Below, one piece after another: positions 40,645 to 63,273 of a DNA stretch of 64,000 nucleotides. Numbering within the stretch: the first letter of the stretch is position 1; every line of letters begins with the position of its first letter. Origin of the DNA: Bradyrhizobium sp. SK17 (GTDB taxonomy: Bacteria > Pseudomonadota > Alphaproteobacteria > Rhizobiales > Xanthobacteraceae); NCBI RefSeq assembly GCF_002831585.1, contig NZ_CP025113.1:6153001-6217000 (forward strand), in the 5' to 3' direction. A program made the translations under genes and the position numbers. Below the pieces are notes generated by a model, which was not told the origin of the DNA, did no database searches, and worked only from the letters and a program-made list of their open reading frames with translations.

Positions 40645-40647
40645 TTG

Positions 40648-41808: not shown

Positions 41809-41819
41809 GGCGCCCTCGC

Positions 41820-42572: not shown

Positions 42573-42599
42573 GGTAATCTCCAGAGACTGAGGTTGAGG

Positions 42600-45185: not shown

Positions 45186-45436
45186 GCGAGCCGACCCTTG
45201 TGCTTGGTGTGACGGATGGCGACTTCAACGAAGGCCGGATCGCGCCTGGCGAGCCAGACGGCCATGCCGTGTCCGATAAGCCAGAGCACGATGCCTGCGA
45301 GCCAAAGCCGCAGGCCGAGCGCCAGCACGGCCGACAGGGTGCCGATCAGGATCGCTGCGGCACGCGGGGCCCCTCCAATCAGGATCGGTTCGGTCAATGA
45401 GCGGTGCAGTACCAGTTCGAAGCCTTGGGCGCGCAT
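45179..45436 (-). CDS. trbD: Conjugal transfer protein TrbD (VirB3-like)
   Basis: 85 residues: LHRSLTEPILIGGAPRAAAI then two hydrophobic segments (ILIGTLSAVLALGL and LAGIVLWLIGHGMAVWLARRD). The small membrane protein works with TrbE in pilus assembly. Its start ATG 45436 overlaps the last base of trbC and its stop overlaps trbE. Confidence 0.9.
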   Translation of the reverse strand: MRAQGFELVLHRSLTEPILIGGAPRAAAILIGTLSAVLALGLRLWLAGIVLWLIGHGMAVWLARRDPAFVEVAIRHTKHKGRLAC

Positions 45437-45804
45437 CAGATCAGGGCTCCGCCACCGAACGAGAAGAACGAGAGAAAGAAGGAGCTCGCAGCAAAGGCGA
45501 TCGAAAGGCCGAACACGACCTGAACCATCTTGCGGAATCCTCCAGAAGTGTCGCCAAAGGCCAGTGAAATGCCAGTCACCGTGATGATGATGACGGCGAC
45601 GATCTTGGCGACGGGCCCCTGCACTGATTCCAGGATACGCTCGAGCGGCGCTTCCCATGGCATGCCCGAACCGGCGGCGTGCACCGCCGTGGCGCTAAGG
45701 AGGATGCAGGTCGACGCCGCGCCGAGCTTGACCAGAGACAACCCGCTGACCAAACAGAAGCCGCGATGGCGCGAACGCACGTTTAGACGCAGTCCAATGA
45801 ACAT
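45436..45804 (-). CDS. trbC: Conjugal transfer pilin TrbC (VirB2-like)
   Basis: 122 residues. A long signal peptide (cleavage probably after AVHA) is followed by two membrane segments (IVAVIIITVTGISLAFG and VFGLSIAFAASSFFLSFF), the layout of pilin precursors. It forms the conjugative pilus. It follows trbB by 18 bp. Confidence 0.9.
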   Translation of the reverse strand: MFIGLRLNVRSRHRGFCLVSGLSLVKLGAASTCILLSATAVHAAGSGMPWEAPLERILESVQGPVAKIVAVIIITVTGISLAFGDTSGGFRKMVQVVFGLSIAFAASSFFLSFFSFGGGALI

Positions 45805-45822
45805 GTTGCAGTCTCCGTCAAG

Positions 45823-46806
45823 TCAGGGGCGATGGGAGGTGATTGGAAGTCCGGCCGGGGTCTCAAGCAGGTAGTCGCCTGACGGATCGAGGCCCTTGAG
45901 CTCGGCGACGGCTTCGATGCGCCGTGCCGGCCCCCGCCCCTTGATGAAGACGATCAGGTCGATAGCCTCAGCGATGAGCCGGCGCGGCACGGTTGCGACC
46001 GCTTCCTGAATGAGTTGCTCGATCCGGTACAGCGCGGCTCGTGCCGAGTTGGCATGGACCGTGGCAATTCCCCCGGGGTGGCCTGTATTCCAGGCCTTGA
46101 GCATATCGAGAGCTTCGGCACCCCTGACTTCGCCGACGATGATGCGATCCGGGCGCAAGCGCAATGTTGAACGCACCAGATCGGCGAGGCTTGCGACCCC
46201 CGGCTTGGTTCGCAGCGTCACGGCATCCTTGGCGTCGCAGCGCAGCTCGCGGGTGTCCTCGATGATAACGATCCTCTCCTCGAGGCCAGCGATCTCCGCG
46301 AGCAGCGCATTGGCGAGAGTCGTTTTGCCCGAGCCGGTGCCACCGGCGATCAGAATGCTGCGAGCCTCGGTGATCGCGGTGGTCAGCACCTTCGCCATCA
46401 GGGGCGAAGCAATCTGCGCCCTGACGTAATCGGACAGGCGAAACGTGGTGGTGGCCGGCTTGCGGATAGAGAAGCATGGCGCCAGCGTGACCGGCGGCAA
46501 GATCCCCTCAAAGCGTTCGCCGGTTTCTGGAACTTCCGCTGAGATGATCGGAGATGAACCACTCGCCTCCGCCCGAACATGGCTCGCAACCAATCGAATG
46601 ATCCGTTCCGATTCCTGTGGGGTCAGAATGACGCCGGTATCGGTGCGTCCCGTTCCATGCCGGTCCAGCCACAGCTTCCCATCGGGATTGACCATGACCT
46701 CGACGACATCCGGCTCCTCCAGGGCTATCGCGATCGCGGGACCCATCGCGGTCCGCAGCATGCCCCGACGGCGCTCCCGAGTTTCTGGCGAGAGGAGATC
46801 AGACAT
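45823..46806 (-). CDS. trbB: Conjugal transfer ATPase TrbB (VirB11-like)
   Basis: 327 residues. A hexameric secretion ATPase with Walker A AGGTGSGKTTLANALL, an Asp box (IVIIEDTRELRC), Walker B (RPDRIIVGEVRGAEALDML) and the His box GHPGGIATVHANS. It drives pilus growth and DNA transfer together with TrbE and TraG. Start ATG 46806 gives the family N-terminus (MSDLLSPETRERR) and overlaps the end of the copG gene, showing coupled translation. Confidence 0.95.
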   Translation of the reverse strand: MSDLLSPETRERRRGMLRTAMGPAIAIALEEPDVVEVMVNPDGKLWLDRHGTGRTDTGVILTPQESERIIRLVASHVRAEASGSSPIISAEVPETGERFEGILPPVTLAPCFSIRKPATTTFRLSDYVRAQIASPLMAKVLTTAITEARSILIAGGTGSGKTTLANALLAEIAGLEERIVIIEDTRELRCDAKDAVTLRTKPGVASLADLVRSTLRLRPDRIIVGEVRGAEALDMLKAWNTGHPGGIATVHANSARAALYRIEQLIQEAVATVPRRLIAEAIDLIVFIKGRGPARRIEAVAELKGLDPSGDYLLETPAGLPITSHRP

Positions 46807-47350
46807 TGCCGACCTCCTCTCGCCCTGCCGGAGAATGCCCCGGCGGCTCACCCGTCGCGCTCTGCGCGCGGGATCCAGCATCGCTGGGCTGAACATCGCC
46901 GAGAGGGGCGCCCTCCTCGAGGTTGCGCATGAAGAGATCCGGCTTCGCGGCGCTGACGCGGTCCATGACGTCGGCAACCAGCCGGCCGCCCGATGCCACC
47001 CGTTTGCCGACCTGCGCGACAAACATCTCAAACCGCTCGCGTCCGAGCGCACGCGCCGCGTCCTGGTCTGACGAGGGCAGCGGCGGGGTGATCGTCAGGT
47101 AGTAGCGGATGAAGAGCGCAATCGATTCCGCCAGGACACCAAGATCACGGTCGGTTCGTTCCAGTTGTCTGCTTATCCGGTCGAGCCTCCGGAGCAATGC
47201 CGCATCGCCGCTCGTGTCCCGCTCAGGGTTGAGAAAGCGATCGAGCGCGGCATCGACGATGGCTGATTTGCTGGATCCCGGACGTTTCGCCGCGAGCTCA
47301 AGACGCTGGGCCACGCTGTCCGTGACATAGGCGGATAGTTTCGGTTTCAT
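46799..47350 (-). CDS. CopG/ribbon-helix-helix protein of the conjugation cluster
   Basis: 183 residues. The N-terminus (MKPKLSAYVTDSVAQRLELAAKRPGSS-like, then KSAIVDAALDRFL) is a ribbon-helix-helix DNA-binding domain; after it comes a coiled helical part and a hydrophobic patch (ALFIRYYLTITPPLP). Proteins of this type sit between traG and trbB in Rhizobiales ICEs and may regulate the transfer operon or help the relaxosome. It begins 12 bp after traG and overlaps trbB. Confidence 0.85.
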   Translation of the reverse strand: MKPKLSAYVTDSVAQRLELAAKRPGSSKSAIVDAALDRFLNPERDTSGDAALLRRLDRISRQLERTDRDLGVLAESIALFIRYYLTITPPLPSSDQDAARALGRERFEMFVAQVGKRVASGGRLVADVMDRVSAAKPDLFMRNLEEGAPLGDVQPSDAGSRAQSATGEPPGHSPAGREEVGNV

Positions 47351-47362
47351 CGGGAATGCCCT

Positions 47363-49390
47363 TCAGAACGAGGGAAGAAGGTCGTCGTCGTCGCGGGTGA
47401 CGGCGTGGGCTCGGCGTACGGAGCTGGATGCGCCTGCTGCCTGGTGCATCTGGCTGCGGTCGGCTGTGACGTCGGTCTCGTCGTCGAGCAATCGCTCCTC
47501 GAAGGGGCTGGGCTCGCTCACAGCCGGTACGGCTTCGTCGAACAACGCCAATTGCTGCTTGAGGCCGCCTTCCTCGCCGACGCTCTGCATGAGCTCGCGA
47601 TATGGCAAGGTTGCGAGGCGGAGGTCGGTGGTGCGCAGTTGGCCGCGCCAATCGTCAGTGCGGACCGGCGGCCGGTCAGCATACGCGTCATCCGCCAAGA
47701 CTGGTGGCTTGCGCAGACGATTGACGAAGTTTGCGTCCTCATAGTGCCGCAGCTTGATCGCCCGGACCGGTGCAAGGCCCGACACCAGCACGATGGCTTG
47801 GTAGGGCGGTAACTGCATCACTTCGCCTGGCGTCAGCAAAGGACGAGCGGTCTCCTGACGGCTGACCATGACATGGCCAAGCCAGGGAGCCAGCCGATGA
47901 CCGGCATAGTTGCGCTGTGCGCGTAGTTCGGTTGCAGTACCGAGGGCGTCCGAGATCCGCTTGGCAGTGCGCTCGTCATTGGCGGCGAAGGCAATGCGGA
48001 CGTGACAATTGTCCAGGATCGCGTTGTTCTCGCCGTAGGCCTTGGCGATCTGGTTGAGCGATTGCGCGATCAGATAGGCGCGGATGCCATAACCGGCCAT
48101 GAACGCGAGCGCGCTTTCGAAGAAGTCGAGCCGGCCAAGTGCGGGAAACTCATCCAGCATCATCAGGAGCTGGCGGTGGGTGCGGTCGCCTGCCGTGGTG
48201 TTCAGCGTCTCGGTCAGACGGCGGCCGATCTGGTTGAGGATCAGCCTGATCAGCGGCTTGGTCCGGCTGATGTCCGACGGCGGAACAACGAGATAGAGCG
48301 TGACCGGCTTGTCGGCACTCACGAGGTCCGCGATGCGCCAATCGCAGCTTTCCGTGTTTCGGCTGACGATGGGATCGCGATAAAGTCCCAGAAAGCTCAC
48401 AGCGGTCGAAAGGACACCTGAGCGTTCGTTTTCGGACTTGTTGAGTAGCTCTCGTGCGGTCGCGGCGACGACGGGGTGCACCTTCGGCTCCGCTTCGGTG
48501 CCAAGGTGATTGGTCGCCAGCATGATCCTGAGCGTCTTCTCAAAGGACTGCGCGGGGTCGGCCAAGATCTCGGTGACGCGGGTAAGCGTCTTCTTCTCTT
48601 CCGCATAAAGGACGTGGAGAATGACGCCGACCAGCAGCGAATGGCTGGTCTTCTCCCAATGGGTCCGGCGTTCGAGTGCCCCTTCGGGGTCGACCAGGAT
48701 GTCGGCGATGTTCTGGACGTCGCGGACTTCGGCCGCTCCTTTGCGCACCTCAAGCAATGGATTGTAGCGGGCGCTTCGCGAGTCCGTCGGATTGAACAAG
48801 AGGCAATGCGAGAACGTCGAACGCCAACCGGAGGTCAATTGCCAGTTTTCGCCCTTGATGTCGTGCACCACCGCCGACGACGTCCACGACAGCAAGGTCG
48901 GGAGCACCAATCCCACGCCCTTGCCCGACCGGGTCGGCGCAAAGCACATGACGTGCTCGGGTCCATCGTGGCGCAGATAGTTGTTATCGAGACGCCCGAG
49001 AAAAACGCCCTTGGACGCGAACAGGCCGGCCGTCTTGATTTCCTTCGCCGTAGCCCACCGTGCCGAACCATAAGTCGTCACCAACTGGCTTTGACGCGCG
49101 CGCCACACCGAATTGACGATAGCAAATAGCGCGCCCGCAATGCCGCCGGCGGCGGCGATGGCTCCGCCCTCCTCGAATATCTCGGGCGCGTATGCCTCGT
49201 AGGCAAACCACCATTCGAACAGTCGCCAAGGCAGATACACGCGGTAGCCGACAATCAAGAACCAGGGTTCGCCGAGACGCTGCTGATACCCGAGAGCTGC
49301 AGCGGTCCATTGTGTTGCGCCCCACGTCGACACGACGACGATGCCGAACACGACGGCGACCTGACCCACATAGATTCTTGCTGGAAACAT
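47363..49390 (-). CDS. traG: Conjugal transfer coupling protein TraG (VirD4-like)
   Basis: 675 residues. Two N-terminal membrane segments (VAVVFGIVVVSTWGATQW and a second near residue 80-95), then a RecA-like ATPase domain with Walker A CFAPTRSGKGVGLVLPTLLSW and Walker B LLMMLDEFPALGRL. It recruits the relaxase-bound DNA strand to the mating channel and pumps it. It is the first gene of the long minus-strand traG-copG-trbBCDEJLFGI operon, so the operon promoter should be in 49391-49917. Confidence 0.95.
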   Translation of the reverse strand: MFPARIYVGQVAVVFGIVVVSTWGATQWTAAALGYQQRLGEPWFLIVGYRVYLPWRLFEWWFAYEAYAPEIFEEGGAIAAAGGIAGALFAIVNSVWRARQSQLVTTYGSARWATAKEIKTAGLFASKGVFLGRLDNNYLRHDGPEHVMCFAPTRSGKGVGLVLPTLLSWTSSAVVHDIKGENWQLTSGWRSTFSHCLLFNPTDSRSARYNPLLEVRKGAAEVRDVQNIADILVDPEGALERRTHWEKTSHSLLVGVILHVLYAEEKKTLTRVTEILADPAQSFEKTLRIMLATNHLGTEAEPKVHPVVAATARELLNKSENERSGVLSTAVSFLGLYRDPIVSRNTESCDWRIADLVSADKPVTLYLVVPPSDISRTKPLIRLILNQIGRRLTETLNTTAGDRTHRQLLMMLDEFPALGRLDFFESALAFMAGYGIRAYLIAQSLNQIAKAYGENNAILDNCHVRIAFAANDERTAKRISDALGTATELRAQRNYAGHRLAPWLGHVMVSRQETARPLLTPGEVMQLPPYQAIVLVSGLAPVRAIKLRHYEDANFVNRLRKPPVLADDAYADRPPVRTDDWRGQLRTTDLRLATLPYRELMQSVGEEGGLKQQLALFDEAVPAVSEPSPFEERLLDDETDVTADRSQMHQAAGASSSVRRAHAVTRDDDDLLPSF

Positions 49391-51225: not shown

Positions 51226-53192
51226 TTACCGGCCAATCCCGCGCTTGATGCTAACCGACCAGGATATGCCCTCCCCACCGAACTGACCGGCGACCAATTG
51301 CCCGCGCGCGCGCTCCAGCACCGGCCGCCAAGGCACCAGTACGAACTCGTGGGATCGCTCGATCATGGCGAACCGTCCGCTGTTCAGCGTCAGCATGCGC
51401 CGGTAGACGCCATCGATCTTGTCGCCGGCCTTGGCATCGACATGTGCAAGGCCGAAGCGCGCGGATATGTCAGCGGCGGTCCGCACCAGCTCGCGCGCCT
51501 TGAGCGTCTCGAGCATGTTTCGCGCAAAGCGCATCTGACCACCTTCCTCTCGCGCCAGCCCCTGCTCGATCAGCCACTGCCGCCTTGCTCGCAACGCGGT
51601 GTCGACTTCGGCGCCAAAGCCGGTTGACGCGAGCACGTCGCGCTCCTTCCCAACGAGCTTGCGATCAAGCCAGGTTGCGCCTAGTGCCTGCGGCAAATCT
51701 TCAAGCCTTTGCCATGAAAGCACCGCGGTCCGCACCGGATTGCGCGATTGCTGGAGTTTCTCGTATCGAAGCGCCCGGTCCAGATAATCGCGCCCCACGC
51801 TCCAACTGCCATCGGCAAGACGGCTTACCATCCCTTCGCGCCGCATCGCCTCCAGACGGCGAACGTGGGTTCCGACAAATTCGTCCGACGCTTGCGGGTC
51901 GAATTCCCGATGCAGACGCTCGCCATATGTGCCGTCATGGCTGGCGGCGATCCCAGCGATCGTCCAATCGATCGCGCGCGGTTCAGCAGCGCGCGACCTG
52001 AGCTCCAAAATCGTGCTCCGGACAGGCGGCTCTTCATTGGGACCGACGGCACCAATCTCGGCATAGTGCGTCCGTCCGTCCACCCCGTCGATCACGACAT
52101 AGCGACGCTCCGTTAGTTCGTCCGCAAACCCCTCGCCAACGACCCGCCCGACCAGGCGACGATCACCTCGTTCTGGATCGAAGATCATGTAGTCGCCTGC
52201 CGCCCGAGAAATTCCTGCCGCCGCCATCTCACGGTGCATGGTCTTGATGATGTCGCCTCGTTCGCCCATCCGTCTGAGCCTGGGCTCCAGCTCGAGGTTG
52301 ATCTGCCACCGGCCAAGCTCGCTCTCCTCGGCCAAGCCCATGCGCTCCAAGGTTCGCAGCCGCCCGATCCGCGCCGTTTGCCAGGCGGGCTCCCGTCCAG
52401 ACAACGCGCCCAATTCCAGAACACCGCCCGGAGCATCTCGCAGAATGCTCCGGTCGAGCCGCGTCAGCCGCTCGGCCGTAATCTCCAGCGAAAGCTTGCG
52501 CGCGAGCTCGATCTCCGTTTCAGGGCCGAGCTCCCGCGTGATGAGCTCTGATGCCCGGGACCGAAAGCCATGAGCGATATATTCACGCGCGATGACGAGG
52601 TCGTTTCCTTCGCCATCCCTGCCGCGCAAGACGATGTGGGTGTGGGGATGGCCAGTGTTGAAATGATCGGCAGCAACCCAGTCGAGCCTGGTGCCGAGAT
52701 CCTGCTCCATCTGCCGCATGAGATCGCGGACGAACGGCTTCAGGTCCGCCAGTTCCGCGCTGTCCTCCGGCGCAACGATAAACCGGAACTGATGGCGATC
52801 GCCGGTGCTGAGTTCGGTAAAGCTCTTGCCATCGGCGCGATCATTGCTGGCGTCATAAAGCTCCCCTGACTCGCCCTCGCGTGTAACGCCATCGCGCTGG
52901 ACGTATCGCAAGTGAGCTCGCACGGCACCTAGGTCACCTGACTTGATCCGCACGATCCGGGCCTTGATTACGACGCGGCGTTCCCCCGGCTTCGTCCGCG
53001 CGCGGCCAACACCGCACCTTGCGCCCGGCCGCGGCCGATGCGGCTGCCGGTAAACGGCGAACCTGCCCGCACGCTGGCGCCGGCCTTGGCCGCTTCTTGC
53101 CGAATGCGCCGAAGATAGCCGGTCACCCTCCCGGCTTTGCGATTGCCGATCCGTCCGAGCTTCACATCGAATTCGTCGTCGATTTCGCGCAT
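51226..53192 (-). pseudogene. RlxS/VirD2-type relaxase (DUF3363), one-base frameshift near the N-terminus
   Basis: The main part (51226-52953 frame) has the MOB relaxase features: LRYVQRDGVTREGE with a candidate catalytic Tyr, DHFNTGHPHTHIVLRG with the three-His metal site, followed by a long DUF3363 part. The first about 75 residues (REIDDEFDVKLGRIGNRK, then RGRAQGAVLAARGR) are in another frame that stops at 52968. One more G in the run of five at 52983-52987 (C on the plus strand) joins them as RSRGERRVVIKARIVR. Relaxase nicks oriT and pilots the strand into the TraG channel. It could be a sequencing error, a true loss, or a frameshift used on purpose. The start is uncertain (ATG 53192 chosen). 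Confidence 0.8.
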
Positions 53193-53777: not shown

Positions 53778-54494
53778 TCACGCCAGCGGCGCGAGCAGCC
53801 TGCGTTGCTTGACGGCGGCGCGGGCGCTGACGTCCGCTTTTGCAGCATCGGGATCGCCGCAATAGAACGTGCCATCGACCCACATCGCGTGCATGATCAC
53901 GGCGAGCTTGCGCGCCACCGCCACGGTTGCCTTGCGGCGCGAAGAGCGTTTGGCGAGCGCCAGGCCCCAGCTTTTGACCTTGTCCTTCTTCTTGTAGCGG
54001 GTCAGAAGCGCGCTCGCCGCCTCGTACAGCGCGCGGCGCACATCGCCATCGCCGGCCTTGCTGATCCGGCCCTGGATGTCGATCGAGGCGCCGGACTGCC
54101 AGCGCCGCGAGGTCAAGCTAAAATACGCCGCGACGTCGCGCGAGCGCCTAAACCGGGAAGGATCGTCAATCGCGGTCATGAAGCTCAGCGCCGCGATCGG
54201 ACCGACGCCGGGACTCTGCGTGAAGCGCCGGCACAGCGCGTGGCCGGCGACCAGCTTCACCACCAGATTGTGCAGCCGGCAATACTCTTTCCACAGCGCC
54301 GCCGGTGCATTGAGCATGGCGTCGATCAGCTCGCTGACCAGTGCGTCTTGGGCCACCGCGTCACGCACCGCTGGGGCAAAACCGCCCCGCCCTACAACCC
54401 ACTCTGCTTCGTCATTGGCTCTGGCGGTTTCTGCCTTGCTCAAATTGCGGCAGCGTCTCAGAAGCAGATCGCACGACGAATTGGATTTCATCAA
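53778..54494 (-). pseudogene. IS110-family transposase, 5'-truncated
   Basis: The 238 residues contain the C-terminal IS110 domain (Transposase_20): FTQSPGVGPIAALSFMTAID, SRDVAAYFSLTSRRWQSG, GRISKAGDGDVRRALYEAA. The N-terminal DEDD catalytic domain (about 150-170 residues of a normal 340) is missing; the sequence before about residue 40 does not fit the family. The remnant cannot transpose on its own. It lies between the relaxase and the interrupted DUF736 gene. Confidence 0.8.
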
Positions 54495-54742
54495 GCAGAG
54501 AAGCCATCACGCTGGCCCAAAACCAACGCTTCTCACGTGCGGCCGGTCGGGACAACGGCCGATACGACCCGTTCAGCGGCCCGACGATCGGCGCCTGACG
54601 CCACGCTAGAATCTCCTCGGATCAATGCAGAACGCCTCACAAGAGCAAGCTGCGGCTGGCCGCCTTTGGCCCGTGGCAAGCCTGTGTCCTCAAGGAAAAG
54701 CAAACCTCCAGGCTCCTCCAGAGCGGCGCCGTAAACACAGGA

Positions 54743-54766
54743 GGCCCCGCCTCCGAGGAGGCGGGG
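54743..54766 (-). terminator. Strong hairpin after the DUF736 3' fragment
   Basis: A perfect 10-bp stem (GCCCCGCCTC with GAGGCGGGGC) and a 4-nt loop, 17 bp after the stop codon of the DUF736 fragment on the minus strand. No good T-run follows. The rest of 54495-54783 has no gene. Confidence 0.55.
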
Positions 54767-54783
54767 CTGATAATCTGTCGGGA

Positions 54784-55062
54784 TCAGTCGCCGTTGCGGC
54801 GCGACCAGATCAGGGTGAAACCCTCCTCGCCCTCGACCTTGACCAGCGAGGCGTAGATCGGAGCCGGGAAGCTCGGATCGTCGAGCTTGACCGAGAGATA
54901 TTCGCGGTCGCTGTCGCGGACGGTCTTCTTCCATGCGGCGCCGAACTCGGTTGAGCCTGCGAAGATGCGGTAGTCGGGAGCCTTGTCGTTGTCCTTTTCG
55001 GAGGCCGTGAACTTGGCCTTGATGTTCAGGGTCAGGGTCTTGATCGAGCCGGTGTAGCCGTT
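54784..55062 (-). pseudogene. DUF736 gene, 3' part (interrupted by transposon)
   Basis: On the minus strand this encodes [18 protein letters not shown] and onward to LIWSRRNGD and stop, the last 92 residues of a normal DUF736 protein. The first 13 residues (MATIGTFTTSDNG) are at 61625-61664, with a 6.56-kb element between. DUF736 proteins are small and of unknown function, very common on conjugative elements of Alphaproteobacteria. The piece has no start codon of its own and is probably not made. The sequence is otherwise undamaged, so the insertion looks recent. Confidence 0.92.
55056..55062. repeat. 7-bp direct repeat, left border of nested element
   Basis: AGCCGTT here and again at 61625-61631. 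It is part of the DUF736 coding sequence (codons for N-G). One copy plus removal of everything between restores the gene exactly, so this is the target duplication or crossover core of the insertion. Confidence 0.85.
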
Positions 55063-55063
55063 T

Positions 55064-55086
55064 TAGGTCAGCCGTCAACTGTCCTT
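55064..55086 (+). repeat. Left terminal inverted repeat of nested element
   Basis: TAGGTCA and TGTCCTT separated by 9 nt; the right end has the same two words inverted, separated by 12 nt. Confidence 0.65.
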
Positions 55087-55199
55087 CTGAAACGAAGCAT
55101 CGGTGTTTGCTTCGTTATTTGCTGGAGGACACTTCCGAGATGTCCTTTAGCGCGATCGCGGCGCCCCGTGATGGAGCGCCGCGTCGATGGTTGAGCGCT

Positions 55200-55496
55200 T
55201 CAGCGCGACCAGATGAGAGCGAAGCCGTCTTCGTTCTCCACGAGGCTTGCGTAGATCGGAGCGGGGAAGCTCGGATCGTCGAGCTTGAGGGAGTGATACT
55301 CCCGGCCCGTCTCCTTGGCGACCTTCTTCCAGGCAGCCCCGATCTCGATGTTGCCGACGAGCGCGCGGAGGTCGGGCGACTTCTCGCTGTCCTTCTCGGC
55401 GACGACCAGGCGAGCCTTGACGCTGAGGTTGAGGGTCTTGATGACTCCGGCGAACGAACCGTCTTCGTTGCGGGTGAACGTACCGATCTGAGCCAT
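55200..55496 (-). CDS. DUF736 protein, intact copy carried by the nested element
   Basis: 98 residues: [76 protein letters not shown]. It is clearly homologous over its full length to the interrupted gene (54784-55062 plus 61625-61664) but distinct in sequence, and about 6 residues shorter at the C-terminus. The gene follows the recombinase genes in the same direction but has its own leader of about 200 nt, so it is probably expressed separately. It likely takes over the role of the broken gene. The molecular function of DUF736 is unknown. Confidence 0.92.
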
Positions 55497-55700
55497 AGGT
55501 CTTCTCCTTTGCTGTATCAGGTCGCGACCATCGCGGCCTTGATGGCGATCGGAAAACACCGGGCGACCGGCCCGCACCCGAAGGGCTGAAACGCAGTGGA
55601 AGGCGGCGCAGGGACGAGCTTCTTGCCTCGCGAGGAAGCCGCGCGGAGGCGTTAGCCGAGCACGGCGGGGAAGAAGGTCGTCATCGCGCTGTTGCGGGAA
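55497..55700 (-). promoter_or_regulatory. Structured 5' leader of the element's DUF736 gene
   Basis: This leader is similar to the one at 61665-61859 over its whole length with the same spacing to the start codon. Elements: a hairpin with 5-bp stem CCATC/GATGG and 8-nt loop (55528-55545), a conserved block TGCGGGCCG-GTCGC (minus strand), and a 12-bp stem with one mismatch (55613-55624 with 55671-55682) that pairs in both leaders although its sequence differs. GTTGCGGGAA closes the similarity at 55691-55700. The rest up to 55974 shows no gene. Confidence 0.65.
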
Positions 55701-55974
55701 CGAGGGCGGGCTGCGCAGCAGCCGAACGCGGTGTGAGATACGCCAGCAAGAAAGGCCGCAATGGACGCACTTCTGGACAGCCCTGCGAAGGAGAGACTCT
55801 GGCTTACGGCATAGAAACACCAACGACCACGGTCTGACGGACTATCGAGACACTTCCTGCGCATTGGCCACCCTCGTCATCCGAGAAGCTGCGAGGACGA
55901 CATGATCCAGCTTCGTCCGGCAACGAGCTATCGGTGCATCGTGCGGCAAGAAGGCTGGGCGGGAAACGACATCA

Positions 55975-56451
55975 TCATCGACCCTCTCCGTGCTCACCGA
56001 CCGACGATCGTAGCAACTGGGGGCGACGACGGTGATCAAGCTCCTTCGTTAACTGCGCGATGCGGTGCTCGGCCCTGTCGGCACGGCGTTCCGCTTCGGT
56101 CGCGCGCCGCAGGAGTCCGGCATTCTCGGTCGCGAGCTGGCGAAGCTGACCCTGCATAATATCGACGGCGATGCGTTGTTCGGCGGCCTTCTCGGCGACG
56201 GCGGCGATCCGATCAGGAGCCCGCCGCTGCTGACGGACGCGGATCAGCTCGTCGAGGATATCGCGGTGATTGGCGTAGATGGCATTACGTCCAACGCGCG
56301 CCTCCCTCGCGAGAGCTGCGACGGTCAATTGCCGTTCGATCATCGGAGACCCCACGGAGCTGCGGGCCAGGCGGTCGAGGGCAGCGCGCAGCTTCTCGGC
56401 TGTCGCTTGCACGCGCCGATCAAGTGGGTTTGCGGCCGTCATCTTCGGCAT
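55975..56451 (-). CDS. DUF6262 protein (TnpC-like accessory of the recombinase operon)
   Basis: 158 residues. An N-terminal helix-turn-helix-like part (RQLTVAALAREARVGRNAIY, then ANHRDILDELI) is followed by a long coiled coil (AENAGLLRRATEAERRADRA...). This is the pattern of DUF6262 proteins, which accompany Tn554-type recombinases and match TnpC in place and size. TnpC of Tn554 affects efficiency and orientation of transposition. Start ATG 56451 has AGGAGG at a perfect distance; the gene overlaps the end of the recombinase gene before it by 32 nt. Confidence 0.8.
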   Translation of the reverse strand: MPKMTAANPLDRRVQATAEKLRAALDRLARSSVGSPMIERQLTVAALAREARVGRNAIYANHRDILDELIRVRQQRRAPDRIAAVAEKAAEQRIAVDIMQGQLRQLATENAGLLRRATEAERRADRAEHRIAQLTKELDHRRRPQLLRSSVGEHGEGR

Positions 56452-58306
56452 GGGCTCCTCCTGTAGCGGAAAGATCGGAAAGGACACGCTCGCACTCGGC
56501 AATGCGCGTTCTGGCGAGAGCGATGCTCGATGCATCGAGTCGATCGTCGGCGACCAAAGCGATGTTGCGATCAAGGCGCGCTTGCCAGACCGGGCGGTGC
56601 CGCTCAGTGACTGCGAAGTTAGCGCAGCTCATGCAGGTGCTCTCGGTGCGCCACAGCGGGTTCGGACCGCGTTCGTCCCCCATGCAAGCGGCGGACTCGA
56701 CGCGATAGACACAATACCCCCAGTCGCAGACGCCGAGCCGCATGCCGCTCTCCTCGATGAGGAAATCGACATAGCCGGCGAGTTCGCCGTCGCGGGTCCG
56801 GCCGCGGAAGCGCGACCGCGACGACAGCATGCGCCCCGCCTTGCCGCCAAGACGCGACGCGGTGAGCAACTCCTCGAGCGCAGATCGCGTCTCGTCGAGT
56901 GTTTGCGCATCGACGAGTTCGCCGAGATCAAAATCTGTTCCGACATAGGCGCTGTCGGTCATAATGCGGGTCACATGCCCGAAATGATGCTGCAAGGCAT
57001 GAAGGCCGGTGCGGTCGCGCTTGCCGACGAAGCGGGCAAAGGTCTTACGGCCTTGGTGCGTGGTCAGACGCCAAGGCGTTCCATCGTCGTTGAGCGGCAT
57101 GTCGATGAAAGCCGCAAATCTCTCGTTCAGACGGATAACGAGAGAACTGCCCGTTGGGACCTCCGGCACGCGGCGATCGATGATGCCGTTCCCGGCGATG
57201 GAGAGCCACAGGTCCAACCGGCCGCTCTGAGCGCGCAAGGGTTCTGAGAGACGGCGCAAGACGTCGACGGCACGCAGAACGGGCGGCGGCGCTGGCCAGA
57301 GGTGCGGCACGCCGGCATCGTTGCCGGCGGTCTTGAATATCCGGCCGCGGAGATAAGCAAAGGCTTCCGTCTTATCTGCGGACGGATGCTCCTCGACGCA
57401 GTGAGCATTGAGCGTCAGAATCTCCGAGGCTCTTGCGCCGACCAGATAGGCAATGGTGACGAAGCAAGCTTCCTGGATGCGATTGATCAGCCCGCGCAGG
57501 TGCCTCGTTCGCGTCAACGGCGGATGCCAGGGCACGTTCTCGCCCTCGATCGTGGAAAACCGAAATGAAGACACGAGTGCCCGGACGGCCTGCCGGTGAA
57601 CGAAGAAGGAGCGACTTTGATCATCCATGCGAAACGGCACGGCCTGGTCGCGTAGTGCGATCACGTCATCGGCCGGCTGTCCGATGAGTCGGATCGCGGC
57701 CGAGACGAGCGGCACGGCGATGGCATCGGGCGTGAATGGCAGGCGCTGCACGGTATGGCGGCTGAATCCGGAATGAGCGCCTACGCGGTCTTCGTCGAAC
57801 GGGTGCTCTGGTGGTGGGCATGCGAGCTTGCGCCGTTGCTGGTAGAGGGCGAGCAAAAGGTTGGCGTAGTCGTGACGGGTCCCAGGTCTGATCAGCGCGC
57901 CATTGTGTCTTCGTCGCCCGGCAATGTCGTGCATGAACCGGGCGGCGGCATCGCGATCGAGGTCGCCGAAGCTGCGCATTGCTTGGCCAGCCATCCATCG
58001 GATCAGGATGCGGAGCTTGACGGCCGCGGCAACAAGGGTTCTCGCGCGGGCGTGCCGCCTGCCTGGCGGCGGATCGAGGCGAAGCGACCACAAAAAGATG
58101 CGCGCATCTTCCAGCCAGCGGCCCCAACATGGGTCTGTGAAGCGGCTGCCGTCTGGCAGTTCGAAATCCCAATCGATCTGGAGCTGCGATCTCCGCAGGT
58201 CGGATCGCAGGCCATCGAGATGCCATTGCGGGTCCGACCATAGCGACTCTGCCGAAACCTTCTGCGGCGGATCAACGTCATGCGTGGGATCAGCTTGGAG
58301 CAGCAT
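56420..58306 (-). CDS. Large tyrosine recombinase of the nested element (third recombinase, TnpB-like)
   Basis: 628 residues. The catalytic region is in the second half: Arg in YLVGARASEILTLN, HQGRKTFARFVGK, and HALQHHFGHVTRIMTDSAYVG with the last His and the Tyr nucleophile. A C-terminal Cys-rich part (GVCDWGYCVYRVESAACMG, CMSCANF) probably binds zinc. Together with the two recombinases encoded before it, it should act in transposition of the element. Begins 2 bp after the stop of the 58309-60136 gene, so the three form one operon. Why two large recombinases are needed is not known. Confidence 0.85.
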   Translation of the reverse strand: MLLQADPTHDVDPPQKVSAESLWSDPQWHLDGLRSDLRRSQLQIDWDFELPDGSRFTDPCWGRWLEDARIFLWSLRLDPPPGRRHARARTLVAAAVKLRILIRWMAGQAMRSFGDLDRDAAARFMHDIAGRRRHNGALIRPGTRHDYANLLLALYQQRRKLACPPPEHPFDEDRVGAHSGFSRHTVQRLPFTPDAIAVPLVSAAIRLIGQPADDVIALRDQAVPFRMDDQSRSFFVHRQAVRALVSSFRFSTIEGENVPWHPPLTRTRHLRGLINRIQEACFVTIAYLVGARASEILTLNAHCVEEHPSADKTEAFAYLRGRIFKTAGNDAGVPHLWPAPPPVLRAVDVLRRLSEPLRAQSGRLDLWLSIAGNGIIDRRVPEVPTGSSLVIRLNERFAAFIDMPLNDDGTPWRLTTHQGRKTFARFVGKRDRTGLHALQHHFGHVTRIMTDSAYVGTDFDLGELVDAQTLDETRSALEELLTASRLGGKAGRMLSSRSRFRGRTRDGELAGYVDFLIEESGMRLGVCDWGYCVYRVESAACMGDERGPNPLWRTESTCMSCANFAVTERHRPVWQARLDRNIALVADDRLDASSIALARTRIAECERVLSDLSATGGAHAEDDGRKPT

Positions 58307-58308
58307 GA

Positions 58309-60136
58309 TTACTCCAGCTCCGGCAGGGCGGGCATGTCGTTGGCAAGCGCACGCGCGGCCTCATGCATCGCAGCCGGGAAATCCGGAAGGATGTCCTGGG
58401 TGAGAATCCGCCACGACGGCGCGTAGAGGAGATTCCACCGTTGGGGGTCGAGCCGGTTGCGGGCTTGTTCGAACCGATCGATGGCGGCGAGGATACGCGC
58501 CAGATGTTCAGGGTCGATCGGGATCACGAGACCGGGACACGCAAGGCATCCGCCAAAATGCGGGCACAGGCGCTCGGCGCCATCTCGACCAGGAATGACC
58601 GGCGCGAGACAATCATGGGCGAAGGAAGCGGTGCCACGACGTTGGCCAAGCCGCAACGGCGCGCCTATAGGCTTGTCCCCGCGCACCCATGCGATCATCA
58701 GGTCTTGCAAGCGAGCGATCGTCTGGCGCTGTAAGCGTGTCGTCTCCTCGCTCTTGAGATACGTCTCGGTCGTCGCGGCGTTGGCGTGATTGAGGATCGA
58801 TTGGGCCACGAGAATATCGCCGCCGGAGGCGCGATAGTGTTCGGTTGCGACAGTGCCGCGAAACAAAGCGGGCGCAAAGCCGGCGATCCGGGAACGCGTG
58901 CTGTCGGGATGTGCCGCGTTCCACTCATCGATGCGATGGTTGGCGCGCTTCGTGAATCGGAGGATAGCGCGCCTGAGGACGGAATGCTCGACCACCTCCG
59001 TGCGGCTACGAAGCGAATGGCGGGTGGACTCGGTATAGATGCTGCGCGTCAGAAATAGCCGATCCTGCTGCATGGGCGAAGCATCTGCAACAAGCGGTTC
59101 AGTCAGGGCCAGCATCATCGCGATCAGGTTCGGCGCGGCGTATCGTCGACGCCGATCGAACGAGCGGCGCTGCGCCTTCTGGAGACGCGCATTGGTCTTG
59201 GCCTTGTTCCAGTCGATGATCACGCGATGCTCGTCGAGCGGATGCGGGATGAGACAGTCGCGACGGATATGACGCAGCGGATCGGGATTGGCGGCGGTCT
59301 GGATGGCGATCGCCAGAAAGAACGGAACGAGCGTATCGGTAGTGATGTGAAAATACTGCGTGATGGTGCGATAGCCGCCCCAAGACTTGACGAGCGTGGC
59401 GGACTTGATCCCGTGTTCTTCGAGAACAGCCCTGTCGGGCATGCGACCGTCCTCGATGCGGCTGATCCGCCAAATCCATCGATCGAGCCCCTGACCGCGC
59501 AGTATCTTGGGCGGAAGCTCGGTGCGCCGGATGACATCCTGCCCATGTTGAAACCGGGCCCAGACCTCGTCGATCTCCTCGTAGCAGGCGCTGAGGATCG
59601 CCTTGATCTGATCGGACGGCAGCCGCCGGCGCGGTTGCTGATGCATTCGCCTGCCGGGAAAGGGATTCCAGGGAATCTCAAGATCGCGTGCGAGCGTTCC
59701 AGGTCGATTGCGCTGGCACCATGCGAGGAGCGGCCGAAATGTATTGAAGGCCGTGGCATGCGCACCGCGCGGCGCGCGGGAGGTCGACTGCGCCTTGAGC
59801 CAGAGCACGTAGCGGCCGAGCGCGGCGGTATCGACATCAGCCGCCGTCTTAATCGTCTCATCGTCGACAACGTAGCGGGCAAAGCGGAGGATCGCTGCCC
59901 AGGTCGTTCGGCGGGTCGTGGGCCTTTGGCCGACGCCATGCTCTCGGAAAGCCTGGACCATGAGCCCGCGCAGGTCGGCAGGCAGGCCGGAAAGCTGCTC
60001 GGGGTCGAACCGTTGGATTGGCCGACCTCCGGCATCGGTGAATATGACCTTATCGGTGATGAGGTCAGTTGCCGCATTGTCCGGCGCCGCAACCGTGATG
60101 CGCCGATTGATCGACTTCCTTTTACGCGCGGCCATG
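58309..60136 (-). CDS. Large tyrosine recombinase of the nested element (TnpB-like)
   Basis: 608 residues from ATG 60136 (frame open further upstream, inside tnpA). Conserved pieces: IAGFAPALFRGTVATEHYRA (Arg box II), ILNHANAATTETYLKSEE (His and the Tyr nucleophile). A C-terminal Cys motif (RLCPHFGGCLACPGL) is again zinc-like. In size and place it corresponds to TnpB of Tn554 (630 residues). Its start overlaps the tnpA stop by 15 nt, a sign of coupled translation. Confidence 0.85.
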
Positions 60137-61282
60137 AGGCACCAACTCGCCGTAAAGATAGGCCAGGCTCTCGGCGAGCGTGTCGGCATGAAGTTCGACG
60201 CAGCGCAGATAGATTGCCGTTGACTGAATCGAGGCGTGTCCGAGCAGGACCTGCACAATCTTCAGCGGATTGAGATCTGGTGTTGTCGCCGCCTGCTTCT
60301 GCAGGCGCACGAGCATGGTCATCGCAAATGTATGGCGCAACCAATGGCCCGATCCTGTCAGCCCTGCCGCCTGAAAGGCCGTGCTGAACGCAGCGGAGAA
60401 CCTCGCTCTCGACACGGGATCGCCGTTGCTGTTGAGGAACAGCGCTGATGACGGCCGATAACCGGGGCGGGTTCTGCGTCGGAGCTTCACCAGCGCCGCA
60501 CGCTGTTCTCCTGCATACCAGTGGGTTCGGTCGATCAGCCGCAGCGGCGGATAGACGGTGCGCGGCCGGTCGCCCTTGGTCACGGTCAGCGGCATTCCGA
60601 CGAGTGGGTCCACGTCGATGTCCACGTGAGCAACATCCGGCACCTGATGGAGCTGCAAGCCGCATAGTTCCTTGCGGCGCATGCCCGTGGCCAAAGCCCA
60701 TTCGGCGATCAGGTCATAGGGCGACGAAAGATGCTGAAAAAGCGATTGGAGTTGATCGACGCGCAGCGGTCGCGGCAGACGTTCAACCTCCGAAACCGTC
60801 AGAGTGTTCGCCATCACGGTCGCAGGCCGATGATGCAAATGCGCCAGCATGCCCTGACGACGCACTGAGCGGAGCGACACCTCAACGTAGTCGAAGGGCA
60901 ATGCTTCGATCAGACCGCGTCGATGCGCCCATGTATAAAAGCGGCAGACCGTCCGGATACGATCGTTCACGGTGGACCGGGCATAAGGTCGCCCGGTATG
61001 AGGGCTCGGCGTTGCCAGCATCCGATTCCGGTAGCCGGCGATCGTTCCCTCATCGGCGAGGCGCCAGTCCAGCTCGCTCTGCTCCAGGCTGTCGAACCAG
61101 TCATGCAGGTGCTCGCTATACGTCCTCAGCGTCTCCATCGCATGCGAGCGGCCGGGAATGGTGGCGAGTTCGATCAGGTAGCCGAAGGCAGGTTCGACAA
61201 TCGACATCTGCGCGTCGAGCAAGATGGGGAAGCCTGCCGGAATCCCTTCAACACCGGGCACTGCCCGTACAATCGAAACCAT
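60122..61282 (-). CDS. Tyrosine recombinase of the nested element (TnpA-like)
   Basis: 386 residues, close to TnpA of Tn554 (361). An N-terminal SAM-like core-binding domain (about 45-135) is followed by a catalytic domain with Arg202 (ALATGMRRKELCGL), GHWLRHTFAM (His, Arg), and LLGHASIQSTAIYL (His and Tyr nucleophile). It is the first gene of the recombinase operon. The start ATG 61282 is 342 bp from the right border of the element; ATG 61207 is an alternative. The 342-bp end has no gene and should hold the promoter and recombinase binding sites. Confidence 0.88.
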   Translation of the reverse strand: MVSIVRAVPGVEGIPAGFPILLDAQMSIVEPAFGYLIELATIPGRSHAMETLRTYSEHLHDWFDSLEQSELDWRLADEGTIAGYRNRMLATPSPHTGRPYARSTVNDRIRTVCRFYTWAHRRGLIEALPFDYVEVSLRSVRRQGMLAHLHHRPATVMANTLTVSEVERLPRPLRVDQLQSLFQHLSSPYDLIAEWALATGMRRKELCGLQLHQVPDVAHVDIDVDPLVGMPLTVTKGDRPRTVYPPLRLIDRTHWYAGEQRAALVKLRRRTRPGYRPSSALFLNSNGDPVSRARFSAAFSTAFQAAGLTGSGHWLRHTFAMTMLVRLQKQAATTPDLNPLKIVQVLLGHASIQSTAIYLRCVELHADTLAESLAYLYGELVPHGRA

Positions 61283-61598
61283 CCTGCTCTCCGGTGACGA
61301 AGCACCCGGAGGTGCAAGAGGACATCGACATCGCCCAAGTGCTTACCGTGTCGATGAAACTGACAGATGACAGCACGCGAATAAAAGATACACGGAGCGC
61401 CTTCGGCGCGAGTCTTCCTTGAGATGCGAGGGGTTCCCCTCGCGCTCTCCCGTTCGCCACGTGGCAGAGGTGCAGGACTTCGCCTGCACCCCTTCAAATA
61501 GCTTGTCGTGTCGCCGCCGCGTCAAGCGTTGTCCTCGCTACGCTGCGGGAACGCTTGACTCGGACGTCTGCGTGCCAGGCTCTCAGGCAATGCCGCTA

Positions 61599-61624
61599 AA
61601 GGACACTTCTCAGCACATGACCTA
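61599..61624 (-). repeat. Right terminal inverted repeat of nested element
   Basis: AAGGACA (61599-61605) and TGACCTA (61618-61624): the same words as at the left end in reverse orientation, directly next to the AGCCGTT copy at 61625-61631. Confidence 0.65.
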
Positions 61625-61664
61625 AGCCGTTGTCGGAGGTGGTGAAGGTGCCGATGGTAGCCAT
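61625..61664 (-). pseudogene. DUF736 gene, 5' part (interrupted by transposon)
   Basis: ATG 61664 starts MATIGTFTTSDNG, identical in type to other DUF736 N-termini; then the frame runs into the element (LGHVLRSVL, stop at 61596). It joins to the fragment at 54784-55062 across the AGCCGTT core without loss of a base. A ribosome binding site (GAGGAAG) and the full leader are intact upstream, so a truncated 22-residue peptide may be made. Confidence 0.9.
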
Positions 61665-61859
61665 GGTAATCTTCCTCTGTTGCTCGGGCCGCGCCCATCG
61701 CAGCCTCGATGGCTGTCCTTGGCCCGGGGAGCGATCGGCCCGCAGCCGCAAGGCCCGAAGCGCCAGCGGAGGACGGCGAAAGCCTGCTTTTTTGTCTTCC
61801 CGCGAGGAATGCCGCGCTTGGCGGCAGGGGAAAAAAGCAGGCGTGAGCCGTTGCGGGAA
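61665..61859 (-). promoter_or_regulatory. Structured 5' leader of the interrupted DUF736 gene
   Basis: A perfect 12-bp stem (GCCTGCTTTTTT at 61782-61793 with AAAAAAGCAGGC at 61831-61842) encloses a smaller hairpin (GCCGC/GCGGC). Nearer the gene is a CCATC/GATGG hairpin (61695-61712). The same parts lie at the same distances in front of the other DUF736 gene (stem 118 versus 117 nt from the start codon). Confidence 0.65.
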
Positions 61860-62513
61860 AGCGATCGAGGCTCTTGCCGTCCCTCGGGCCTGATCAGCCC
61901 ATTCGAGGGTGCGTTGGTCGCGAGCCCATGAGCGAACTGACGACGATGATCGTGGCTTCCAGCCCCGGCACAGCACAGGATACGGCGGCATCGACCGAGC
62001 AGAATGCCCATGCCTGCGCCTCAATCGCAAGCCGGGAGCGCTCCCGGCAGGCACTGAATCGCCAGTTGCGTTCAGCACGACGAGACCGTCGCGCCGCCCA
62101 AGTCATCCGCCCGCATCGCTCGCGATGCGCGCAATCACGACGCGATCGGAGCGTCCGGCACTGATCGACCGACTTGCAAAGGCATGCGCAAGGCAGCCGC
62201 GCTGGCTGCGGCGATCGGCGTGAGCCTGACGGGTCAGTTCCCTGAGTGGAGAAGGACTTGCGTTGGCCGCGCCCTGCTCGGCCGCGGCAACAATTGTTAA
62301 ACTGGCCGCGGCGCGTGCAGGTCACGGTTCAGGCAATGCTCCGGCTTGGCGCCTAGCCTGTCGTGGAAACGCGACTTTGCTACCCCATGCCGCGAAACCG
62401 GCGATGACGTGTCAATGAACAGGATTGACCGACAACCAATCGTACTCAAGCCAAGGGAAACCGGAAAGGAATTCACCTCTTTCCCCGGGCACGCGCCAGC
62501 CACCACCCGCCAC
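61860..62513. other. Intergenic stretch between DUF736 leader and traF
   Basis: About 650 bp. Open frames here have no recognisable match and look like frame noise. A hairpin CCCTC/GAGGG is near 61877-61907. A DUF2840 gene often found here in related ICEs is absent. Confidence 0.4.
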
Positions 62514-63053
62514 TCAGCTATCCGACGTCCACGTCCAGAGCGGGCGAGCGACGCCGAGAATGTCACAACGTAGAACCGGCCCGAAATACCTGGAATCGAA
62601 CGAGAGCGGATGCGGCTGAAGCAGAAAATACTCCCCGTCCACGAGCCGCATGCAGCCCTCCCAGGACGGCAGCGGCCGGCCTGCATGATCTTTCTCCTGC
62701 ACTCCGGCAACGACCTTGCCACCGATCGACACCGCATCCGCCGGTTGCCTTGAGCGGCAGACCTCCTCGCCCGCGAGCGCGGCCACCTGCTTGAGCAGCG
62801 GCACTTTGGGCGGCAGGATCTCATGCGCGACGATCACGAGCTCGATCGAAGGCGGCGGCCGCAGCACCGCAAGCTCTCCCCTCAACGGCAGCCGCCGCTC
62901 AAGATAATAGAAGCCGAGCGGCGCGCTGCCGGAGGCATTGTAGATCAGGAGAGGCGCCCGATCGGCAAAGGCGACCAACAGCGTGACGATACCGCCGCAT
63001 ATGGTTGCGAGGATTGTGCCGTTTCTGAAGGGACGGTGTGGATCAATCCGCAT
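62514..63053 (-). CDS. traF: TraF-type conjugal peptidase, S26 family
   Basis: 179 residues. One N-terminal membrane segment (GTILATICGGIVTLLVAFA), then YNASGSAPLGFYYL with the catalytic Ser, and PLLKQVAALAGEEVC with the catalytic Lys; FLLQPHPLSFDSRYFGPV is the last conserved box. TraF acts like a signal peptidase on the pilin (TrbC) and makes it cyclic in the RP4 system. Start ATG 63053 overlaps the upstream AlpA-like gene by 11 nt. It is away from the trb operon, as usual in these ICEs. Confidence 0.88.
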   Translation of the reverse strand: MRIDPHRPFRNGTILATICGGIVTLLVAFADRAPLLIYNASGSAPLGFYYLERRLPLRGELAVLRPPPSIELVIVAHEILPPKVPLLKQVAALAGEEVCRSRQPADAVSIGGKVVAGVQEKDHAGRPLPSWEGCMRLVDGEYFLLQPHPLSFDSRYFGPVLRCDILGVARPLWTWTSDS

Positions 63054-63273
63054 CGGACGTCGACCTCCGCTTGCTGGCCTGCGAGAATTCCATGAGGTCC
63101 TCGATGTGATAGCGGACGTAGCGGCCGTGCTTTCGGTAAGCGGGCCCACGTCCTTGCACGCGCATTTTCTCCAGCGTGTTCTTGGTGAGCCTGAGCCAGG
63201 CGGCCGCCTCAGCCGTATTCAGGAACGGCTTGTCGGGCTGCTTGTCTTCCATTTTCGTCATGTTGTCCGGCAC
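63043..63273 (-). CDS. AlpA-like helix-turn-helix protein (possible excisionase/regulator)
   Basis: 76 residues. FLNTAEAAAWLRLTKNTLEKMRVQG and GPAYRKHGRYVRYHIEDLMEF form the MerR-like winged helix of AlpA and DUF3853-like excisionases. Such proteins switch on or help excision of islands. Coupled to traF by an 11-nt overlap. Confidence 0.85.
   Translation of the reverse strand: MPDNMTKMEDKQPDKPFLNTAEAAAWLRLTKNTLEKMRVQGRGPAYRKHGRYVRYHIEDLMEFSQASKRRSTSDAD

Follow-up and report, generated by a model that had tools for sequence, protein, structure and literature searches.

The 64,000-nucleotide stretch analyzed here (the window; G000:C1:6153001-6217000, from the 8.3-Mb, two-contig genome of Bradyrhizobium sp. 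SK17) contains a complete transposon of 6,563 bp, located at 55063 to 61625 on the minus strand, that interrupts a gene for a DUF736 protein and carries a second, complete DUF736 gene of its own. The element is described in the minus-strand sense, which is the sense of the broken host gene. The 5' piece of the host gene (61626 to 61664, minus strand) consists of 13 codons, MATIGTFTTSDNG, and the 3' piece lies at 54784 to 55062 on the same strand, preceded by an in-frame TAA at the end of the element. Joining the two halves across one copy of a short core sequence yielded a DUF736 protein of 103 amino acids with no internal stops, and the split gene reported in a first-pass annotation of this DNA is therefore real.

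The borders were set with relatives in other DUF736 genes as a guide. The inverted terminal words noticed in the first pass proved to be perfect 8-bp inverted repeats, TTAGGTCA/TGACCTAA, of which the 5' end occupies 61618 to 61625 (minus strand, TTAGGTCA in gene sense) and the 3' end 55063 to 55070 (TTAGGTCA on the plus strand). The element is thus written TTAGGT...ACCTAA and is flanked by two copies of a 6-bp core, AACGGC in gene sense, which encodes Asn-Gly; one copy is on the host side of the 5' end (61626 to 61631, minus strand) and the other is at 55057 to 55062 (minus strand). The 7-bp repeat AGCCGTT that had been proposed for both borders is present at 55056 and 61625, with a spacing of 6,569 bp, but its seventh base is ambiguous and the core proper is 6 bp. 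The two strands of the window together contain AGCCGTT 20 times, and such a short repeat is by itself no proof of an insertion; the proof is the continuity of the protein together with the relatives. Because the core is made up of two in-frame codons, clean excision would restore the reading frame.

All genes of the insert share the orientation of the host DUF736 gene and lie on the minus strand. The first (60122 to 61282) encodes a tyrosine recombinase of 386 amino acids, TnpA (Phage_integrase, 66.7 bits), with the full catalytic set R203, K236, H313/R316, H349, and Y358. The second (58309 to 60144, putative start) encodes TnpB, a 611-amino-acid relative of tyrosine recombinases (PHROG integrase, E 4e-11) that retains R429, H453, and Y462 in a 22-row alignment in which the first Arg was not identified. 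The third recombinase, for which the name TnpD is used here (56420 to 58306, 628 amino acids; PHROG integrase, E 4e-6), retains R292, H417/R420, H444, and Y454 in the corresponding 22-row alignment. TnpA and the third recombinase have the full catalytic set, with residues conserved across the 22-row alignments. The small fourth gene (55975 to 56454) encodes a protein of 159 amino acids, here named TnpC, that matched DUF6262 weakly (19.1 bits, below the cut-off of 29); of the operon of three tyrosine recombinases and a DUF6262 protein described in the first pass, the three recombinases are present and the DUF6262 match is weak. The order of three recombinases followed by the small fourth gene is the same in the window and in the relatives, and a fourth-gene homologue was present in every fetched relative whose contig or element reaches that far and is not decayed.

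The DNA behind the fourth gene amounts to only about 0.9 kb and contains one DUF736 gene (55200 to 55496, minus strand; PF05284, 103.5 bits). This internal gene, located at the downstream end of the element in the same direction as the host gene, is complete (98 amino acids), contains one additional codon where the crossover falls (EDGSF), and is preceded by its own leader (55497 to 55600, minus strand), two stretches of which resemble the host leader at 61680 to 61754 (repeat families D2, 72%, and D13, 83%). The complete, diverged DUF736 gene with a leader that had been noted earlier is thus confirmed.

The DNA hit by the element is a Trb-type integrative and conjugative element (ICE), to which 34487 to 64000 was assigned with Pfam. 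Its Pfam-assigned genes include an integrase (34487 to 35587), the trb genes (37647 to 47052), a traG-type coupling gene (47363 to 49390), a relaxase/DUF3363 gene (51226 to 52953), and a traF-like S26 peptidase gene (62514 to 63149); the conjugation genes include trbI and trbG/cagX-, virB8-, trbL-, trbE-, and trbB-type genes. The split DUF736 gene is located between the relaxase and the S26 peptidase. Between the relaxase and the split gene there is also a piece of an IS110-family transposase (53778 to 54494), which scored above the Pfam cut-off and below the NCBIfam cut-off. Upstream of the host DUF736 gene, an imperfect inverted repeat (61773 to 61851; 31-nt arms, 77%) lies in the leader. 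No Rfam match to a structured leader was found up to an E value of 0.1 in 54000 to 63000, a region that includes this repeat.

Relatives of the same clade (TnpB 71 to 100% identical) were obtained from genome contigs (11 loci, including L021, which belongs to another target class), from plasmids (the best 60 of 93 and the best 60 of 220 records), and from genome samples. These provided 18 nonduplicate loci with a visible left junction, not counting L091 (a locus of the L090 kind), L016 and L017 (both lacking the left flank), and L095 (left end lost). In 18 of 18 loci, the left end of the element followed codon 13 or 14 of a DUF736 gene, as it follows MATIGTFTTSDNG in the window, and the element pointed in the same direction as that gene, in agreement with the early proposal that the element targets DUF736. 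The right junction, where present, continued the DUF736 gene with the motif NG[FY].G, and also with AGF and DGF. The 5' core varied across the 18 loci (AACGGC, AACGAC, AACAAC, AACGAT, AACGAA, AACGAG, and AATGGC), and the 5' and 3' copies were identical in some loci and different in others. Comparison of the loci thus points to precise insertion at one codon pair, in one direction, and in many target alleles.

The source genome itself has four copies of the element with 100% identical TnpA proteins, three of them chromosomal and one on the 285-kb contig C2, and each sits in a different DUF736 gene. Seven complete copies (the window, L031, the 1.78-Mb copy, L013, L014, L015, and L024) had 0 to 1 differences over 6,563 bases, whereas their flanks had diverged by 5 to 28% where they could be aligned and did not align in some pairs. 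These near-identical copies in diverged flanks indicate separate, recent, and repeated insertions. In the seven copies the 3' core was always AACGGC and the 5' core was AACGGC, AACGAC, or AACAAC, with the native target sequence known for few of them; the 3' core may travel with the element. L021 provides a natural empty site in which the DUF736 gene is uninterrupted. This gene is 100% identical to the 5' flank of the C2 copy over 132 bp, and it is 98.5% (5', 132 bp) and 87% (3', 438 bp) identical to the flanks of L024. Two contigs, L017 (6,582 bp) and L080 (6,535 bp), begin and end nearly at the element ends, as multicopy or circular elements would assemble.

TnpB relatives were detected in 9 of 195 genomes sampled from the genus and 9 of 296 from the family. 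In the samples from the order (1 of 397) and the class (1 of 385), only the source genome had one; in all of these samples the best 3 to 6 candidates per genome were scored, a depth at which rare misses are possible. The internal DUF736 gene was likewise found in the source genome only in an order sample (1 of 347). Two TnpA queries found no relatives among viral contigs.

The element sequence could be followed past its right half at 17 loci (the 18 without L020, whose contig ends). The internal DUF736 gene, for which the first-pass annotation had asked whether it always accompanies such elements, was intact in 14 of these (the window, L031, the 1.78-Mb copy, L013, L014, L015, L019, L022, L024, L025, L026, L085, L027, and L090) and damaged in the other three. 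When compared downstream of the insertion site, the internal genes (11 rows) formed one clade apart from the targets (14 rows) with support of 100/99; database rows, own-genome rows, and the rows of L096 and L098 were left out of this tree. An earlier tree, in which database rows and several faulty ones were still included, had the same split with support of only 61/96. In the set of 11 and 14 rows, internal genes were 82 to 99% identical to one another and 49 to 69% identical to targets, and targets were 49 to 99% identical to one another. Pairwise ratios of nonsynonymous to synonymous substitution rates (dN/dS) among 14 internal genes were 0.015 to 0.23 for pairs with a dS of at least 0.1 when L098 was left out. 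Pairs with the distant L098 gave 0.19 to 0.32, and values of 0.30 and 0.49 came from two close pairs with no more than 8 changes. Judged from these ratios, the internal gene is under purifying selection.

The internal gene belongs to a subtype, here called type B, that has one extra residue at the crossover, EDGSF versus the NGF/NGY of the type A targets. The extra-residue subtype also exists outside the element, for example, at L005 of the source genome, and a rough motif match among the 120 closest database proteins gave 101 with the extra residue, 13 without it, and 6 unclassified. Its presence outside the element, together with its different site, indicates that the element captured a DUF736 gene whose site differs from the target site. 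The extra codon at the crossover may make the carried gene an unlikely target and so bar self-insertion.

A further search was started from the internal DUF736 gene instead of the recombinases. It matched 1,163 plasmid records, the best 40 of which were listed. Among the matches listed, 15 of 40 records had an internal-type copy (identity of 71% or higher with query coverage of 95% or higher; 65% for the next match in the list), and 14 of the 15 were fetched (H143 was left out). Full operons were present at four of these plasmid loci, L024 to L027. In eight plasmid records (L090 to L096 and L099), the recombinases were decayed or absent within 7 kb, and the internal-type DUF736 gene was intact in all eight; the count becomes 9 of 10 if two Azospirillum records without a trace of the element are added. 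Recombinase remnants were recognized in L090, where the operon has a large deletion, and in L091, L092, L093, L095, and L099; L090 was counted both here and among the 14 intact loci. In L096 the gene is a hybrid that continues in frame into a target-type tail. The two Azospirillum records (L097 and L098, 71 to 76% identical), which had no recombinase trace and were not counted among the decayed loci, differ in that L098 is intact and L097 has lost its N terminus. In two Agrobacterium plasmids, L090 and L091, both element ends are kept, tnpB has been deleted, and dinB- and tetR-like genes have been gained between the internal DUF736 gene and the right end. These comparisons indicate that the carried gene has one origin, is held under constraint, and can outlive the recombinases.

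No DUF736 place beyond the internal gene or genes and the target remnant or remnants was detected at an E value of 1e-5, a limit that a remote DUF736 may escape, in 12 of the 15 plasmid records among the matches listed. Profile searches of whole genomes agreed with this sole-copy state for the B. betae plasmid, two Ancylobacter plasmids, the ICE of the window, and the 3.34-Mb copy; for the last two, the nearby DUF736 matches were only the internal gene and the split target. That the carried gene is the sole remaining DUF736 in these 12 records fits a takeover of the DUF736 role. A point on the same side is that DUF736 is reported to be present on every Mesorhizobium ICE compared (PMC8627217).

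More distant elements (21 fetched, TnpB about 33 to 46% identical) had other targets. In thirteen (L029, L056 to L061, L065, L076 to L079, and L083), at least one of the two junctions fell within a ParB-like gene, where the site was the motif R(E)x(M/L)|HPxDQ or closely similar to it; L076 and L079 were placed by the right junction only, and the ParB name comes from annotation in L058 to L061 and from likeness in the rest. Three (L062, L081, and L082) were in a DUF932-like gene, a name recognized from the sequence with no family search made, and were oriented opposite to that gene. Five (L028, L063, L064, L080, and L084) had no assigned target. In the fetched annotation and sequence, a DUF736 gene was found inside none of the 21, of which L084 is too short to tell, and L059 has DUF736-like genes outside the element. 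The first-pass annotation had held that related elements in unrelated genes and lacking DUF736 would count against its idea; such elements were found only at this distance. In some ParB-type relatives, such as L059 and L061, the 3' part of the broken gene could have a new start in an ATG at the core.

In L021 and on C2 (L040, G000:C2:18001-37000), the DUF736 gene is immediately followed by a DUF4326 gene in which a second related element (TnpB 64% identical) is inserted. In L040 and L021, two related transposons with different targets thus concern neighboring genes of one plasmid backbone. Both DUF4326-type copies are incomplete on the right, the L021 contig ending inside the element and the C2 copy being cut after the fourth gene, and no complete DUF4326-targeting element was found in plasmids (best 12 of 103) or in 11 genomes of one genus. 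In a TnpB tree of 27 rows, the target class followed recombinase ancestry with the minimum possible number of changes, three; seven identical rows were collapsed, L080 fell outside the groups, and L017 was labeled DUF736 with no left flank and four bases of right flank. Thus, targeting of DUF736 and carriage of DUF736 coincide in one clade and did so once.

These results suggest that the element is probably a four-gene tyrosine-recombinase transposon (three recombinases and a putative small helper, similar to GInts and Tn554) that resides on ICEs and plasmids, inserts site specifically, and replaces the DUF736 gene broken at its insertion. By comparison of the loci, the recombinases would exchange strands at the 6-bp Asn-Gly core near codon 13 of a type A DUF736 gene, and insertion leaves the element between two core copies and breaks the host gene. 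The exchange may proceed through a circular intermediate and core exchange, as in GInts and Tn554. The element supplies its complete type B gene downstream, together with the leader found in front of it, and the extra codon may shield this gene from insertion. The carried gene may take over the DUF736 role of the replicon, as suggested by the selection on it, its position, and its persistence where the element has decayed, leaving the ICE or plasmid unharmed and allowing the element to persist. When the recombinases later decay, as in the plasmid loci above, DUF736 would stay as a domesticated replacement. Taken further, the element may be a parasite of conjugative elements that homes on their hallmark gene, DUF736, brings a site-resistant paralogue, and permanently swaps the replicon's DUF736 allele, this paralogue being the only DUF736 left once the recombinases have decayed, a reading toward which the balance tips slightly.

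The strongest alternative, which we consider rather unlikely, is that the internal DUF736 gene is chance cargo picked up from an ICE or plasmid, unrelated to the target, and that type B was kept as useful beside type A. Relatives in ParB-like and DUF932-like genes do carry ICE-type genes unlike their targets: a pRiA4b ORF-3 gene is cargo in the ParB-type elements L056, L057, L058, and L065, and an ArdC antirestriction gene lies just inside the right end of L062. DUF736 genes are reported to be often duplicated on ICEs (PMC8627217), and DUF736 carriage arose a single time. Against chance cargo, DUF736 was found as cargo only in the clade that hits DUF736 and in none of the 21 distant relatives (L084 being cut before that part), and it is the sole nonremnant DUF736 in the 12 of 15 plasmid records described above. 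A role of the internal protein in the element's own biology, such as that of a DNA-binding helper or a regulator of the recombinases, seems improbable. In its favor, the gene is located inside the ends and is intact in 14 of 17 elements. Against it, recombinase operons of this kind in distant clades occupy distinct sites without DUF736, and loci that have lost the recombinases still have the gene, which there is part of a set held under constraint. Two adjacent DUF736 genes are what a tandem duplication might leave, but an assembly artefact or a separate nested event is already contradicted, since the 6,563-bp unit with its internal gene recurs at seven loci with 0 to 1 differences, in different targets and several assemblies, including a complete plasmid of B. 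betae.

Several observations weigh against replacement of the broken gene by the carried one. The internal gene was damaged at three of the 17 loci: in C2 a deletion fused it out of frame to the host remnant, in L018 the right half is lost, and in L023 the first codons are lost. On plasmid C2, where the internal gene is lost, there is no other intact DUF736 gene. Further DUF736 places exist in three of the 15 plasmid records (H139, H144, and H145), and host genomes have 4 to 13 DUF736 matches each, pieces counted. The ParB-type relatives break their target, and their fetched annotation shows no copy of it; elements can therefore succeed without replacement. Carriage arose once in the sample, which makes the association of target and cargo a single event. 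The decayed loci were detected by their DUF736 genes and thus give no estimate of loss rates, and L094 and L096 have no recombinase trace within 7 kb. Furthermore, the DUF736 family has no known function, and the internal gene belongs to a subtype paralogous, rather than orthologous, to the target; it may therefore add a function instead of replacing one.

The preferred reading, a transposon that replaces the gene it breaks, can be set beside several known systems. RIT elements (recombinase in trio) have three tyrosine recombinases side by side and are not known to need a fourth gene, whereas a fourth-gene homologue is present in all sufficiently long, undecayed relatives fetched here. Tn554 has two recombinases and TnpC and targets radC/att554; the present element has three recombinases. 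Both are site-specific tyrosine-recombinase transposons, and the core exchange described for Tn554 (PMC12486829) would apply here as well. GInts (Bardaji et al. 2017, PMC5385486) have at the 5' end an operon of four genes, which encode three integrases and a small protein; they are described with a 6-nt staggered exchange, imperfect direct repeats, and targets that include an ABC transporter gene, ssb, and others. The three recombinases and small fourth gene at the 5' end of the present element resemble that description, as do its site specificity (18 of 18 loci) and its core copies, which agree in some loci and differ in others, and the 6-bp core would fit a 6-nt exchange. However, GinC is reported to be without the first catalytic Arg (PMC5385486) and without the catalytic Tyr (PMC10214605), whereas the third recombinase here keeps its catalytic residues R292, H417/R420, H444, and Y454. 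The cargo is one small gene in about 0.9 kb behind the fourth gene, versus the 2.5 to at least 70 kb given for GInts (PMC5385486), and a 2023 survey had no ginC-ginD block in Alphaproteobacteria (PMC10214605). As the third protein and the cargo size are outside the GInt definition and that block is not reported from this class, the element is called GInt-like rather than a GInt.

The first-pass annotation knew of no described element with this strategy, a claim that has to be withdrawn, as two reports describe the same plan. The RME of Vibrio cholerae (Rapa 2014, PMC4405046) is a site-specific island in recA that is bounded by 9-bp inverted ends and excises as a circle; near one of these ends it has a complete recA of its own with 23% divergence. 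It shares with the present element (here at 14 of 17 loci) a complete diverged homologue of the broken gene, and it differs in being a 32.8-kb island with many repair genes, a chromosomal housekeeping target, and another recombinase set. Tn552-II (Wan 2025, PMC12486829), an element of the Tn554 type, interrupts a gene of a conjugative plasmid and brings along tgl, a gene that resembles the target; its authors suggest a possible rescue mechanism, and the donor core is brought in at the right end. Both it and the present element split a gene on conjugative DNA and carry a complete homologue of the broken gene. Tn552-II has tnpABC versus four genes here, its tgl still holds an att copy where the internal DUF736 gene has an extra codon at the site, and it is one S. 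aureus element whose report has no selection analysis or multilocus comparison (PMC12486829). No description of a DUF736-targeting element was found in the literature searched, which leaves most subscription papers outside. The general strategy therefore has precedents, and none was found for this element, for the DUF736 target, or for survival of the carried gene after decay.

The element provides a well-replicated natural case of a transposon that would pay for the gene it breaks, with many separate insertions, one ancestral replacement, and loci that have decayed to different degrees. What insertion costs and what replacement is worth can be tested directly, since carriage of the target gene marks one recombinase clade and is absent from more distant ones. 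The findings point to a transposon family specialized on conserved genes of ICEs and plasmids, and they suggest that DUF736 matters to these replicons. If the proposed reading is true, the switching of targets among parB, DUF932, DUF4326, and DUF736 within one recombinase family would represent a guild of transposons specialized on ICE and plasmid backbones.

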